Source: Alloascoidea africana
Lineage: Eukaryota > Ascomycota > Alloascoideomycetes > Alloascoideales > Alloascoideaceae
DNA: 64,000 nucleotides
NCBI GenBank assembly: GCA_030581615.1
Contig: JAKTTT010000010.1
Span: 124,001 to 188,000 of the forward strand
Reading direction: 5' to 3'
In this document: positions 21,677-50,208 of the stretch, piece after piece
Layout of the letters: the number at the start of each line of letters is the position of its first letter
Numbering within the stretch: position 1 is the first letter of the stretch
Notes under the pieces: generated by a model
What the model saw: only the letters and a program-made list of their open reading frames with translations
What the model was told of the DNA's origin: nothing
The model's database searches: none
Translations under genes and position numbers: made by a program

Positions 21677-21749
21677 GCCTTGATGGCCAAGTTGGTAAGG
21701 CGTATCACTAGTAATGATAAGATCGTCGGTTCGACTCCGGCTCGAGGCA
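21677..21749 (+). tRNA. tRNA-Thr (AGT), copy 1
   Basis: 73 nt, intronless. Acceptor strands GCCTTGA and TCGAGGC pair with one G-T wobble; discriminator A. Anticodon stem TATCA/TGATA closes loop CTAGTAA, giving anticodon AGT (read as IGU, Thr). T arm GTCGG-TTCGACT-CCGGC is perfect and carries the B box. A T5 Pol III terminator follows within 8 nt. Confidence 0.95.
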
Positions 21750-21872: not shown

Positions 21873-21945
21873 GCCTTGATGGCCAAGTTGGTAAGGCGTA
21901 TCACTAGTAATGATAAGATCGTCGGTTCGACTCCGGCTCGAGGCA
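21873..21945 (+). tRNA. tRNA-Thr (AGT), copy 2
   Basis: Identical over all 73 nt to the copy ending at 21749, with a T5 terminator shortly after. The 123-bp spacer between the copies is not duplicated, apart from a few A residues directly upstream of each gene. This suggests an old or gene-converted local duplication. Confidence 0.95.
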
Positions 21946-42928: not shown

Positions 42929-45499
42929 TTATTTAAAAGCCTTTTCATATAGTTTCTTCTGTTGGTCATACTGCTTTTGTAACTTTTTCCTTAAGCTCTT
43001 GGATAGCTCTTGTCCCTCGTTATCCAGCGTAGGTATTCCATTCTCATCCCATGCAGAAAACTTTTGCTTAAACTCTTCAGTCTTGAAAAGTTCATTTGGA
43101 GGAATCTTGGCCTTGGCTTCCTTCTCGGCCTTCTTTTGTTCTTCGAGTTTTAGTGCTGCCATCTTCCTCTCTAGCTTTTCCTTTTCGCGAGCTTCATCGT
43201 TCTCGAGCTTTTTAATCGCCTCGGTTGCCTCTGTAGAATCGAGAAATCTAATAAGGGCACGCTGTCCATCCTTTCGGTCATTAAACGTGACACCAAATTT
43301 TCGAAGGACTTCTTTCCTAAGATTGTCTGTGAAGGAGAGGAATTCCACATGGCCTGCATTCTTTTCAATTAGTTCTGTTACAAAGGAAGTTGAGTTTCTG
43401 ATGAAACTGATCAACTCTGAAACCGAGGAATCTGTGGCAGCTGCTGCTTCCTTCAGAATCGACTCTAAACCTTCCTGTGCCTTGCCCACTGCTGTGCCAA
43501 AACCCGATAATGGGGATTTATCCATAGCAAGTTTCCTCACATCGTCACGCAACGTAGAAAGCACAGATATATGAGGCCTGATCTTATCCTCACGGGTTGC
43601 TTCAGACGACGAGCTGGAATCTGTGACACCTGCATTATCTGCCCAACCAAGCCCATCCTGACGACTAGGGAATCCTAAAATTCTTAGAATCTTTGTAACA
43701 AAAATACAGGACTCTACCAGCACGCTGGTCCTTGTGTCCGACTCGGTCTTCTTCAGATAAACATTCACATTCTGCACTAGCTCGCTTAGTGCCTTTAGGG
43801 CAACTGGAGTTGCAAAATTATCACAAAACGCTTCATGCACCGAGTCCTTAGCATTTGCCAGTTGTGCAAATAATTCCTTCTCAAAAGGACCTAATTTCAA
43901 AGGAATAATGGCCCCTTGTTTTAGAGCATACTCTTCATCGTGGACATGAGCACGCACATTCGCGAAAAAGTTATTAAAGGAACTTTCAAAAGATCTCACT
44001 TCATTGAGTAGGCCTTCCTTAAAATCAACTGGTTGATTCCATTGCTGTAAAGCAAATGCTAGTCTCAATTGTCTGGCAGAGTACTTATCCAGCGCTTCAC
44101 GGATAGTAATAAAGTTCTTCAAACTTTTACTCATTTTTTGACCTTCAATGTGTAGATGGCCTGTGTGTAAGAAATAATTTATCCACTGTTTACAGTTGTG
44201 ATAGGCCTCTGATTGTGCCAACTCATTATCATGATGTGGGAATGCAAGATCAATTCCACCAGAATGGATATCGATTTCAGAGCCCAAAATATTTGATGCC
44301 ATGACCGAGCACTCAATATGCCATCCAGGACGGCCTTTACCCCATGGGGATTCCCAAATTGGCTCGCCTGGTTTGCTTGCTTTCCAAAGTGCAAAGTCAT
44401 TGGGGGATCTCTTTCCAGTTCCGGTTGTTAAAGAACCTTCGCCTTCTTCAATTAAATCTTTCTTGCCTTTATTCCAAGGCTGTAATTTTGCGTAAACATG
44501 ACTTTCATCATCATCGAATCGGTTTGTATCAAAATAGACGCTTCCATCATCCGTTACGTAGGCAAACTTGTTGTCGATGATCTTTTCGACAAATTCAATG
44601 ATCTCAGGAACATATTCAGACACTCTGGTCACAACAGTAGGGGGCAGCACATTCAGTGTTCTCATATCTTCATCATACTTTTTTTCCCAGTATGCAGGAA
44701 GGGCCCTGAAAATCTCTGGATCGTTTACTGAGCCCCCCAATTCATCATCGAGGACTGGGACGAGAACATCCTGAATAGCAGGAAAAAAAGTTTTCGTTTC
44801 TATGTTGTTGTGGTTTAAGAGCGCATCAGCTGCCTGTTGTGCAGCTTTCAGGTTCATGGGAAATTTGGGGTCAGAAGCTGCTTCTTGAGAAACGTCAACT
44901 GATGTTGACCAATTCTTGAACGACACAATGTCAAGATCAGAAGGTGCGTTCTTCAGTGTCTTTTTAATATGGACACTCCAAGCACCATTAACCTTCTTCA
45001 AAACCTCTTCATCTATAACTTGATGCTCAGAAACATACTTGTCAAAAAGGTAGTTCTGTCTAGCTCTCTTGATGATTTTATCATCGATATCTGTTACATT
45101 TTGCACAAAAACAACGTCATATCCAAAATAATCTTGCAATATTCTTCTGTTTATGTCAATTGAAATATAGTTACGACCATGCCCTAAATGTGCAGAGTCA
45201 TATGTTGTGGGCCCACAGGAGTACCATGTTGCTGTCCTTGATTTAATGGGCTTGAAAGGAGCTTTGGTTCTAGTTAGAGTGTTGTAAACCTTGAGCACTG
45301 ATTTCTCTGTTACACTTGGTTCGTGCCACTTGGGCTGTTTGTTGCTTGAATTCTCAGTAGAAGTCATCCCTAGGCTTTGAGTAGAAAAGGAAACTTGTGA
45401 TCGTTTTCTAAGGGCAAACTGATTCGATATAGGAAATTTGCAGAGACTATGACAGGTTCTGAGACTATAAAAAGACGTTTTCAGAGAAGACTGTATCAT
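42929..45499 (-). CDS. CRS1: cysteinyl-tRNA synthetase, probably dual cytosolic/mitochondrial
   Basis: 856 residues from the first ATG (45499); in-frame sequence further up starts only at TTG. A second in-frame ATG at 45367 (M-T-S-T-E-N) would remove 44 residues that are basic, hydroxylated and free of acidic residues, like a mitochondrial presequence. Class Ia landmarks: W-Y-S-C-G-P-T-T-Y-D with Zn-binding Cys, H-L-G-H (HIGH box), G-W-H-I-E-C-S-V-M-A and H-H-D-N-E-L-A-Q-S-E (remaining Zn ligands), and K-M-S-K-S. The eukaryotic insertion between the HIGH and Zn parts and the Lys/Glu-rich C-terminal helix (about 760-820) are present. Family knowledge: charges tRNA-Cys, and alternative starts supply both compartments in several fungi. 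Its 5' end faces RAD50 with only 219 bp between the first ATGs. Confidence 0.95.
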   Translation of the reverse strand: MIQSSLKTSFYSLRTCHSLCKFPISNQFALRKRSQVSFSTQSLGMTSTENSSNKQPKWHEPSVTEKSVLKVYNTLTRTKAPFKPIKSRTATWYSCGPTTYDSAHLGHGRNYISIDINRRILQDYFGYDVVFVQNVTDIDDKIIKRARQNYLFDKYVSEHQVIDEEVLKKVNGAWSVHIKKTLKNAPSDLDIVSFKNWSTSVDVSQEAASDPKFPMNLKAAQQAADALLNHNNIETKTFFPAIQDVLVPVLDDELGGSVNDPEIFRALPAYWEKKYDEDMRTLNVLPPTVVTRVSEYVPEIIEFVEKIIDNKFAYVTDDGSVYFDTNRFDDDESHVYAKLQPWNKGKKDLIEEGEGSLTTGTGKRSPNDFALWKASKPGEPIWESPWGKGRPGWHIECSVMASNILGSEIDIHSGGIDLAFPHHDNELAQSEAYHNCKQWINYFLHTGHLHIEGQKMSKSLKNFITIREALDKYSARQLRLAFALQQWNQPVDFKEGLLNEVRSFESSFNNFFANVRAHVHDEEYALKQGAIIPLKLGPFEKELFAQLANAKDSVHEAFCDNFATPVALKALSELVQNVNVYLKKTESDTRTSVLVESCIFVTKILRILGFPSRQDGLGWADNAGVTDSSSSSEATREDKIRPHISVLSTLRDDVRKLAMDKSPLSGFGTAVGKAQEGLESILKEAAAATDSSVSELISFIRNSTSFVTELIEKNAGHVEFLSFTDNLRKEVLRKFGVTFNDRKDGQRALIRFLDSTEATEAIKKLENDEAREKEKLERKMAALKLEEQKKAEKEAKAKIPPNELFKTEEFKQKFSAWDENGIPTLDNEGQELSKSLRKKLQKQYDQQKKLYEKAFK

Positions 45500-45718
45500 A
45501 AAGCTCGCAACTAGCAAGGGAAATCTTTGATTCCTGAGAGTTAACGAACGAATGTCGATCGTAAAGAGTAAAGTTTGGTCAAATCGATGAAATTTGTGTG
45601 TCACAAAATGACGAATCGGTGTCAAATCAGGGTAACATGGTTGTCTGCCTTAAGCTGAACTGAGACAAACTTTGGCTAAAAACCATCAAACAAGGTCCTC
45701 TATGATTATTTGTTATCA
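45500..45718. promoter_or_regulatory. bidirectional promoter between CRS1 and RAD50
   Basis: A 219-bp spacer serves both divergent genes. An upstream ATG at 45702, out of frame with RAD50, would precede the RAD50 start if transcription begins before it. Confidence 0.5.
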
Positions 45719-48700
45719 ATGTAAGTTAATTTTTTGCATTTATTGTTTTAGTATTCTAACATTGTTAAAGGTCTTCTATTGAAAAGGTATTTTAAATCAT
45801 TAAAGACGAAGCAGTTCCAGACAAGATAACCCCTAACATAGACGCGCCTATAGTTATCCATCCAGGGCATTAGATCTTTTGATAACAGGGTGAAAGAAAC
45901 TATTGAGTTTGGCACACCCCTGACGTTGATTGTTGGCCAAAATGGTTCCGGGAAGACGGTAAGCAGAAAATTTTTATCCCTAGACACAAGCAAGAATACT
46001 AATTAAGAAATCCAGTCGATAATTGAATGTCTGAAGTACATTACTACTGGAATGCTTCCTCCAAATAGTAAAGGAGGAGCTTTTGTTCATGACCCCAAGG
46101 TAAGCTGGATCTACTTATGTACTGGTTCAATGATTAAAAGTTACTGATGAAACATTTAGATCTGCTTAGAGAAAGATGTTAGAGCTCAGGTTAAACTGGC
46201 TTTCAGAAGCAGTGGTGGAATCGAGATGGTGTGCACGAGATCGATGCAGTTATTGCTTAAAAAAACCACTCAGACGTTCAAGACTTTAGAAGGCCAGTTA
46301 ATGTCGAACAATTATGGAGAACGAATTGCATTGAACACGCGTACGTCAGAGTTGGATGAGAAAATGCCCTCTTACTTGGGCACTTCCAAAGCTGTTTTGG
46401 ACTATGTGGTGTTCTGTCATCAAGACGATAGTCTATGGCCACTTTCAGAACCCTCTATTTTGAAAAAAAGATTTGATGAATTATTTGAGGCTCTAAAATT
46501 TACCAAGGCATTGGACGACTTGAAAAAGATCAAGAAAGAGATGCTTATAGACATAAAATTGCTAACGCAATCAGTTGAGCATTTAAAACAAGATAAAGAG
46601 CGTGGTGAGAGAGCCGAACAACGAGCTTCCCAACTGATAGATGACATTGAGCAATACAAGAAAGATGCAGAGGTGATAAACGAGGAAATCAAAGCTGTCA
46701 CAGCCGAATCTCAAAAATTATTCAAGCATAACAAAGAATTCAACCGCATCTTGTCGCGGATTGAGTATCTAAATCACTTGAAAGATACGAATCAAGAGCA
46801 GATTGATCGCCTGGAGCCTACATTAGATCTCATCCATGATTCTGACGAAGAATTGATCAAAGCCTTAGATAACTTTGAGCAAGAGGTAAACAAAAGAAAG
46901 GATAGCTTGGAAGATCGGAAAAAGCAGTATGAGAACTGTGCTGATGATTTGCAATTTGCTCGAGAGAAGCACAGCCGTTTTATGAGAGATGAAGGTCATT
47001 TGAAAGCTGAAAGCGAGACTTATAAGCGCAATCTTCAGAGAAGAGCAGATTTCATAATTGAGACAAGCAGGAATATGGGTTTTGACGTTCTTGGACCAGA
47101 GTTGGAAGATGCAGATATAGAAACTTTTAACAGTGAGCTTGCCGATGAGCAATCTCGAATAACTGGAGAATTGCAAAAAATCATTAAACAAGGTCAGGAT
47201 GAGCAGAGCGTTGCACAGAGAGACTTGCAAAAGATTGTGGAGGAAAAGCTTAGAGAAGAGCAAAAAAAAGTTTCTCATGAAAACGAGGTGAAAGCTATGG
47301 AAAGAGAAATTACAAATCTTAACCAAGAAATATCAGGTATCAAATCTGACGAAGGTGTTATTGCCTATGAAAAGTCTATACTGCATGACCATGAACAAAA
47401 GCTTGCTGATTTAAAAGCTGAAGAGAAATCAAGTAACCTTGGAGAAAGAATTTCTCAGTCGTATACGAAACTATCTGGATTAGACAATTCAATTGAAGAA
47501 TTGCAAAGAGAAGTGGCGAAGGCAAACCAACAAGCAGATGTACGGGCTAAAATTGCTTTGCTTGATGATGATATACGGAGCAGGGAGGCTGCAATTGAGG
47601 CCCTTGTAAGTGCCAACTCCAAACGTTTTTTAGAGGAAGTTGGTACTGAGCTCGATACCTCTGGTTCGGATGCCGATTGGCAGTCTGCACAAGGTGAAGC
47701 GGAACTAGAGTTGGATGAAGCGCAAGATCGTTTTGACAAGGCCAAAAATGAATTATCAAAGTTGGAAACGGAGAAAGACATGTTGGAACGACAATTAAGC
47801 AAGACCAAAAGAGAAGAGTCAAAACTTTTAGCAGAGATTTTGGCTATCCTTGGAGATGATGCTAAAGTTTCTGAGTATGAAGAAATAATGAAAGCTGTTG
47901 AAGAAGATTATAAAAACATGATTGAGGACGCTCAGAGTTTTGCATTTTTCATCAAGTACTATAATAGCGCTATTCAACAGGCAAGGTCTAGATGTCATTG
48001 CATTTTATGTGGTAGAGGCTTTACTCAAGAGCAAGTTCCAAAGTTTATTAGCAAAATTGAAAAAGAATTGTCGGATAAGCCCAAGTCTTTAGAGGAGGCT
48101 CAAAAAAACATGAATGAGGTTAAAGAAGAGGTTGAACAGGCTAAAAGTATTTCACCACAAGTTTCGAGATTCAGAAAGTTGGCAGATGTCGATATCCCAC
48201 ATTTGAAATCTCAGGTAGATGAAATCACCAAAAAGTATGAAGAAGCCAAAATTGAAGTGGAATCAAGGTTGAAAACAGTACAAAAATTAAAGAATAAATT
48301 GGAATCACTTGAGAGTTTGAGACGGCCAGTTAATGATATTTTCCGTGTTGCGGAAGAGATTAAAAATATCAAAAATCAAAAAATTGCAGTTGAAGAAGAT
48401 TTACGATCAATTGGTGTTAGTACCAAATCTTCACAGCAACTTCAAGATCAATTAAGCGAACTGAATTCACAAGCCCGAGCAATTAGATCAGAAATCCAGA
48501 TTCTATCCTCACAAAAGGAAAATCTACAAAGTAAGATGAATAGATTAGAGGGGAACATTAAGGATAGTAGACTTTCAGTTCAACAGTTGGAACATCAGAT
48601 TCAAAGAAAAGACTCTTTGAAGGATCGAATTTCGCACCTTCGTGATAAGATTAGAATCAACGGAGAGGAGTTTGAATTGGCGGAAGAAGCTATAAAGAAA

Positions 48701-49873
48701 GTTAGTGTGAGAATTGAAGCTCAAACCAAAGTGGTAGAAACCATAAAAGCAAAATATTTGGTGTTTGAAGAGGAGAAAAATAAAGATTTTTCAAAAATAA
48801 GGGATATTGTTCAATCTCTTGATGGAATTCAACGTGAAATCGATATTTATACCAATAACGATGGACCAGGAAAATTGTCCAAATGTCGTGAACAAATTAA
48901 TCAAAGTGCAAATGAAATTTCTTTTAAAGAAAATGAATTGAAAAAGTTATCAGATTATATCCATAAAGAAGAGCTTGATTTAGGAGATGTGACTGGGCAG
49001 GAGAGAAACCTACGGGATAATCTTCAATTAAGGAAAGTTAAGAAAGAATTTGGTGAGATTGAAGAGGAATTGGAAGAGTTGAAAAAGAAAAATGCGGAAA
49101 GCAAAAGAGATAGATATGAACAAGAGGCAGCAAAGCTTCAGAGTAAGCATACCAGACTTACAACAGCACATGGTAGTAAAGTTGGGGAGATAAAACAGAT
49201 GGATGATCAATTGGCACAATTGGAAAGGGAGTTGAATACAGAGTATAAAAATATTCAAAAAGATTATCAACGTGAATGGGTTAAACTGCACACGAAAACT
49301 GTTGCTTCAGAAGATCTTACCAAATATTCCAAGGCTTTGGATAATGCAATCATGAAATATCACAGTATCAAAATGGAGGAGACGAATCGGATTATTGATG
49401 AGCTTTGGAAGAAAACTTATAGTGGTACAGATGTTGACACAATTTTGATAAGAAGTGATAGTACTGGAGTTAGGGGAAACCAACAACACAATTATCGGGT
49501 TTGTATGGTGAAACAGGATGCGGAACTCGATATGAGAGGACGTTGTAGTGCTGGTCAAAAAGTTCTTGCCAGTATAATAATCAGATTGGCACTTGCGGAA
49601 TGTTTTGGCAATTATTGTGGGATGATAGCATTGGATGAACCCACGACCAATTTGGATGCTGATAATATTGAATCACTTGCGAGAAGTTTGGGTCAGATTA
49701 TTGAACTTCGTAAAAGTCAGAAAAACTTTCAATTGATTGTAATCACGCATGATGAAAAGTTTCTTCAATATATGGATGCTGCAAAATATACAGATCATTT
49801 TTATCTTGTGAAACGGAACGAACGTCAGAAATCTGAGATTGAATGGGTCAATATTAACAGAGTTGGTGAATAA
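45719..49873 (+). CDS. RAD50: RAD50, ABC-ATPase subunit of the Mre11-Rad50-Xrs2/Nbs1 complex (five exons, start codon split by an intron)
   Basis: Exons 45719-45720 (AT), 45771-45786 (G plus five codons), 45854-45958, 46016-46099 and 46160-49873 join to 1306 residues (S. cerevisiae 1312). The N-terminus reads [16 protein letters not shown], matching the family, so the A-T of the start codon is in exon 1 and the G in exon 2. Walker A is G-Q-N-G-S-G-K-T at the exon 3/4 junction; then [26 protein letters not shown], long coiled coils, the zinc hook C-I-L-C (codons near 48000), signature [14 protein letters not shown], Walker B and T-H-D-E-K-F. Family knowledge: tethers and processes DNA double-strand breaks. 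Intron signals: GTAAGT/TATTCTAAC, GTATTT/CCTAAC, GTAAGC/TACTAAT, GTAAGC/TACTGAT-like. Unspliced intron 1 would read ATG-TAA. Confidence 0.93.
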
Positions 49874-50001: not shown

Positions 50002-50102
50002 TGCTCCGTGGGAGGCTCGAACTCTCGACCTTCAGATCACACGTTTTCGTGAGACACGGATAAAATATGAGACTGACGCTCTACCAACTGAGCCAACGAA
50101 GC
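50002..50102 (-). tRNA. elongator tRNA-Met (CAT) with a 28-nt intron
   Basis: On the minus strand the acceptor is GCTTCGT/ACGGAGC, discriminator A. D arm GGCTCAGTTGGTAGAGC, anticodon stem TCAGT/TCTGA with the same terminal mismatch as the S. cerevisiae elongator tRNA, loop CTCATA plus A, anticodon CAT. A 28-nt intron sits after position 37. T arm GAGAG-TTCGAGC-CTCCC. The mature sequence closely follows yeast elongator tRNA-Met, which in S. cerevisiae has no intron as far as I recall. Confidence 0.93.
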
Positions 50103-50208
50103 TCCATTCTACAGCAAAAAATCACGTACTCAGTCAGATCTTCTGAATGTGATGTTACTTTCGAATATGCAATAAATGTGACACAGAAGTGTTTGTTTAA
50201 AAGAGAAC
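50103..50208. other. tRNA-Met 5' flank
   Basis: Short spacer between the tRNA 5' end and the LTR-like relic. Nothing else seen. Confidence 0.5.

Follow-up and report, generated by a model that had tools for sequence, protein, structure and literature searches.

Our analysis confirms that the start codon of RAD50 in Alloascoidea africana is divided, AT|G, by a predicted GT-AG intron, with the conserved Rad50 N-terminus appearing once this intron is spliced out. The gene lies in the window, by which we mean the whole stretch of 64,000 nucleotides that was analysed, taken from an assembly of 23.2 Mb in 138 contigs. The reading that we favor, with a probability of about 0.83, is that a normal spliceosomal intron, most likely removed constitutively, separates the second and third bases of the start codon (T and G) and is followed by a micro-exon and three more short introns close to the 5' end. 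Splicing of intron 1 would then create the AUG of RAD50, the mature mRNA would begin Rad50 as MSSIEK, and RNA left unspliced would read AUG-UAA and probably decay. The sequence itself shows the splice signals, the open frame, the conserved product and the matching arrangement in RPL19, RPL43 and RPL20; we infer the use of intron 1 in RNA, its constitutive splicing, as would be expected for ribosomal genes with divided start codons in this and other yeasts, and the decay of unspliced RNA.

Table 1 Features of the window and their coordinates.
Feature	Position	Strand	Remarks
Cysteinyl-tRNA synthetase gene	42929-45499	-	Pfam PF01406; divergent from RAD50
Upstream ATG	45702..45704	+	out of frame with spliced RAD50, 17 nt upstream of its start
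RAD50 exon 1 (coding)	45719..45720	+	A45719 and T45720 of the start codon
RAD50 intron 1	45721..45770	+	50 nt, phase 2, between T and G of ATG
RAD50 micro-exon	45771..45786	+	16 nt; start-codon G and SSIEK
RAD50 intron 2	45787..45853	+	67 nt; donor GTATTT (5.5); CCCTAAC probable branch site, by eye
RAD50 exon 3	45854..45958	+	LSIQGIRSF to Walker A GQNGSGKT
RAD50 intron 3	45959..46015	+	57 nt; donor GTAAGC; TACTAAT by eye
RAD50 exon 4	46016..46099	+	
RAD50 intron 4	46100..46159	+	60 nt; donor GTAAGC; TACTGAT by eye
RAD50 exon 5	46160..49873	+	remainder of the protein to its stop, with the CHCILC zinc hook (by eye) and the Walker B region
tRNA-Thr (AGT), two genes	21677-21749, 21873-21945	+	123 bases apart

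Removal of the four introns gives a complete protein of 1306 residues with no internal stops, in which the Walker A motif GQNGSGKT (residue 34) and the zinc hook CHCILC can be read by eye. The spliced N-terminus is MSSIEKLSIQG, and its first 197 residues match, with residue 1 as the starting point on both sides, the five Rad50 sequences found in the PDB (9bi4_C, 5da9_A, 5dac_A and 7zr1_C, whose alignments were inspected, and 9q9h_A, which was tabulated), so that the alignment starts at Met1 of the solved chains. The best match among them is 9bi4_C (E 6.5e-92), which we take to be S. cerevisiae Rad50. Two Pfam families match exon 5 above their cut-offs, AAA_23 (31.9 bits) and SbcC_Walker_B (28.3 bits), and SMC_N matches it under its own cut-off. 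As judged by its predicted product, the gene is RAD50, encoding a full-length ABC-ATPase chain that carries Walker A, zinc hook and Walker B, and the gene model is very likely right. The preliminary description had made the same identification, which the alignment of the first 197 residues from Met1 bears out; its 50-nt intron, 16-nt micro-exon and second small intron were placed exactly, and the full model is open.

Intron 1 has a GTAAGT donor, a TTCTAAC branch site, whose CTAAC ends 10 nt ahead of the 3' splice junction, and an AAAG acceptor. A TAA at 45766-45768, just 5' of the acceptor, closes the SSIEK frame, so exon 2 could start only at 45771, and among three AG acceptors tested the frame is open only with the one at 45769-45770. 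Joining exon 2 to an upstream exon requires a codon of the form NN|G, and nine donors between 45400 and 45735 have an in-frame ATG upstream. The donor at 45721 scores 9.4 and the next 1.2, the eight competitors ranging from -6.6 to 1.2; exactly MSSIEK results from two of the nine, 45721 and the weak 45554 (score -1.2). The donor matrix was built from 38 predicted introns, some of them probably false, picked by a score that favors GTAAGT, GTATGT and GTGAGT; these were the candidates away from the pattern sites that passed a score of 16, among 377 from a second crude intron finder, a first one having been so strict that a single intron remained. As the matrix is partly circular, the gap between 9.4 and 1.2 counts for more than the value of the score. 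In dinucleotide shuffles of 45498-45768 with the acceptor fixed, AT|GTAAGT at the head of a 40-130 nt intron arose 416 times in 100,000, and 7 times in 100,000 when a CTAAC whose last base lies 4-25 nt before the intron end was also required; with the looser donor GT[AG][ATG]GT the corresponding counts were 2128 and 27 in 100,000. The AT|G split that had been proposed for this gene holds up, given that the joined exons yield the conserved N-terminus and that 45721 is by far the best of the nine donors. The start context has a T at -3, as do 7 of 31 crude start contexts. A gene finder that demands an intact ATG would miss this model, and the titles and abstract openings of the literature searched contained no report of a split start in RAD50.

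Pattern scans of the whole genome show how the evidence for such a start has to be weighed. The bare motif ATGTAAGT-N25-55-CTAAC-N2-15-AG has 32 matches against 28 in the reversed control, and two further split-start patterns gave 11 against 12 and 43 against 40. Because the bare motif is hardly commoner than in the control, it is the conserved joined product together with the quality of the sites that constitutes evidence. The places translated numbered 30 of 32, 11 of 11 and 30 of 43, the third scan overlapping the first and some loci covering the same place twice; judged by eye and with no family search, only RAD50 had a recognizable N-terminus among these products (for the later scans, the best 16 of 41). 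One promising place (L023/L065) was rejected as a split start: by eye, the intron there is the final one in a gene for a proteasome beta-subunit. The scans are no census: restricted to short, CTAAC-bearing introns, they failed to pick up the ribosomal genes described below. Relatives were also sought by a scan of viral contigs, in which none were found. Two of the matched places (L025 and L026, contig C21), about 45 kb apart, have identical matched sequence with a G+C content of 0.54, compared with 0.42 for the window, and are perhaps a duplicated or repeated element.

RPL19, RPL43 and RPL20 each occur at two places in this genome (L083-L088), and all six copies examined read as split starts, with AT|GTAAGT, identical to RAD50, in the four copies of RPL19 and RPL43 and A|GTATGT in the two of RPL20. 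These donors were picked by eye with the S. cerevisiae positions as a guide. For each pair, one copy's spliced product was set against solved ribosomal proteins and agrees with them: the RPL43 and RPL20 products align with chains of 7pzy from residue 1, and the RPL19 product has one extra residue near its start, its third residue aligning to residue 2. Both RPL43 translations end at 72 residues, as they run into a further intron. One RPL19 copy, L083, also has an in-frame ATG within the intron, close to its 3' end, which could serve as the start, so that this copy alone is no proof of a split start; the other five, including L084 (RPL19), are without such an ATG in the stretch of open frame that leads up to the exon. 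The predicted arrangement in RAD50 is of the same kind, although these are ribosomal genes with introns of 55-403 nt; in this genome, split starts would thereby extend past the ribosomal genes to a gene of DNA repair.

In S. cerevisiae, six genes whose first coding exon measures one or two bases appear in Table 2 of PMC3226532: RPL19A, RPL19B, RPL43A and RPL43B, where it is AU (AT|G, the split seen in RAD50 here), and RPL20A and RPL20B, where it is A (A|TG). As in RAD50, the intron lies inside the start codon and the AUG exists only after splicing; unlike these ribosomal genes, RAD50 here is a DNA-repair gene in which a 50-nt intron is followed by a micro-exon. That both copies of RPL19, RPL43 and RPL20 read as split here, as they are in S. 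cerevisiae, suggests that a divided start codon can be an ancient and stable position rather than an oddity. For Yarrowia lipolytica, PMC2911113 gives 47 genes whose first coding exon is a single base, and PMC13309789 (2026) gives 42 introns with the donor directly after one of the three start-codon bases, A, T or G, a count that takes in introns after a whole ATG and is in no close agreement with the 47. That yeast has 5'-biased introns that lie in or at the start codon, much as in RAD50 here, and phase-2 GTGAGT and GTAAGT donors always produce a stop (PMC2911113), which in this position is immediate. The class counted there in 2010 is A|TG, whereas RAD50 is AT|G, and the branch site in Y. 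lipolytica averages one base from the acceptor motif, in contrast to the CTAAC of RAD50, which ends 10 nt before the intron end. To call split start codons rare, as the preliminary description did, is an overstatement in view of the six S. cerevisiae genes in PMC3226532, the 47 Y. lipolytica genes in PMC2911113 and the six of six ribosomal copies here. Since other yeasts and other genes of this genome have split starts as well, intron 1 of RAD50 appears to be an ordinary intron, unusual in its position, rather than a switch.

In unspliced RNA the ATG at 45719 reads M-stop, as had been claimed; the AUG-UAA follows automatically from an AT|GTAAGT donor. The next in-frame methionine, M54, lies downstream of Walker A. 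Retention of intron 1, 2, 3 or 4 would give 1, 8, 56 or 84 residues, respectively, and skipping of the micro-exon removes the start. The proposed all-or-none effect is right in that unspliced RNA yields M-stop, but it is not peculiar to intron 1, which is not the sole silencing intron because retaining any of the four truncates Rad50. The genome encodes a UPF1 zinc-binding domain, which makes decay of unspliced RAD50 RNA plausible, and transcripts escaping splicing would probably be lost in this way.

The M-stop is also what recommends the idea that splicing acts as a gate, with removal of intron 1, or of the weaker intron 2, suppressed during growth and permitted in meiosis or upon DNA damage, so that Rad50 would be produced at those times alone. 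We regard this as unlikely. There is a precedent in S. cerevisiae, where the introns of MER2, MER3 and AMA1 depend on Mer1p (PMC3226532) and the production of a meiotic protein turns on splicing; Mer1p is a known factor, whereas none is known for RAD50, for which such control had been proposed. Introns that need extra factors generally have low site scores according to PMC3226532, and those of MER3 (-7.4) and MER2 (4.7) are low and their donors weaker than that of RAD50, but AMA1 (8.8) is not low, so a regulated intron may have a good donor. In RAD50 the intron 1 donor stands at the top of the scores (9.4) and is accompanied by a CTAAC branch site, which tells against a gate, while the intron 2 donor, which favors one, is lower (5.5). 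A gate would also not need the start-codon position, as a truncated protein results whichever RAD50 intron is retained, and Rad50 is required outside meiosis too. Among three other recombination genes of this genome none has a split start: in MRE11 (L080), whose first nine residues are unaligned, the ATG is by eye intact and an intron follows early on; SPO11 (L090) has, by eye, an intact ATG; and MND1 (L089, reverse strand) has a 59-nt intron directly after its ATG, identified by eye and translated, whose donor is GC (GCGAGT…CACTAAC…TAG). In S. cerevisiae MND1 the first coding exon is AUG alone (PMC3226532). The tie to meiosis or stress found no support, the top-scoring donor of intron 1 being at odds with the generally low scores of extra-factor introns (AMA1 excepted), and the indirect evidence leans to constitutive splicing of intron 1.

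A related proposal, which we think less probable still, is that retained intron 1 places an AUGUAA at which ribosomes could stall and decay be triggered, the level of Rad50 then being set by how efficiently splicing proceeds in meiosis or damage; the AUGUAA minimal start-stop of Arabidopsis NIP5;1 is an analogue for such stalling and decay (PMC11915504). Two features of the leader, the intron 2 donor and the upstream ATG, point away from plain constitutive splicing. As the GTATTT donor of intron 2 is weaker than the GTAAGT of intron 1, complete splicing of the leader is not assured, and a proximal AG at 45840-45841, 4 nt past the CTAAC of intron 2, would if used give MSSIEKTRL and then an in-frame stop. 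If the transcript begins upstream of 45702, the ATG there opens a 24-codon uORF that overlaps the RAD50 start.

We give slightly less credence again to a real 5' exon elsewhere, in which another upstream ATG and donor would be joined to the micro-exon to produce the same or a longer N-terminus. The nine in-frame combinations between 45400 and 45735 supply candidates, such as ATG 45702 with donor 45725, and ATG 45552 with donor 45554 also yields MSSIEK. The eight other donors are, however, weak (-6.6 to 1.2 against 9.4), and seven of them lengthen the N-terminus, while the aligned solved Rad50 proteins begin MS-x-I. Least probable of all is a non-AUG start in some transcripts or a sequence error mimicking the split of an intact start: the model is known from the genome sequence alone, but splice signals and homology agree with no alteration of that sequence, and six other gene copies here also read as split starts.

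Downstream of RAD50, an intron-bearing tRNA-like sequence suspected by eye near 50005-50103 gave no ARAGORN match. The divergently oriented cysteinyl-tRNA synthetase gene has two in-frame ATGs 44 codons apart, and its longer form begins MIQSSLKTSFYSLRTC, which by eye resembles a mitochondrial presequence; one gene may accordingly serve both compartments.
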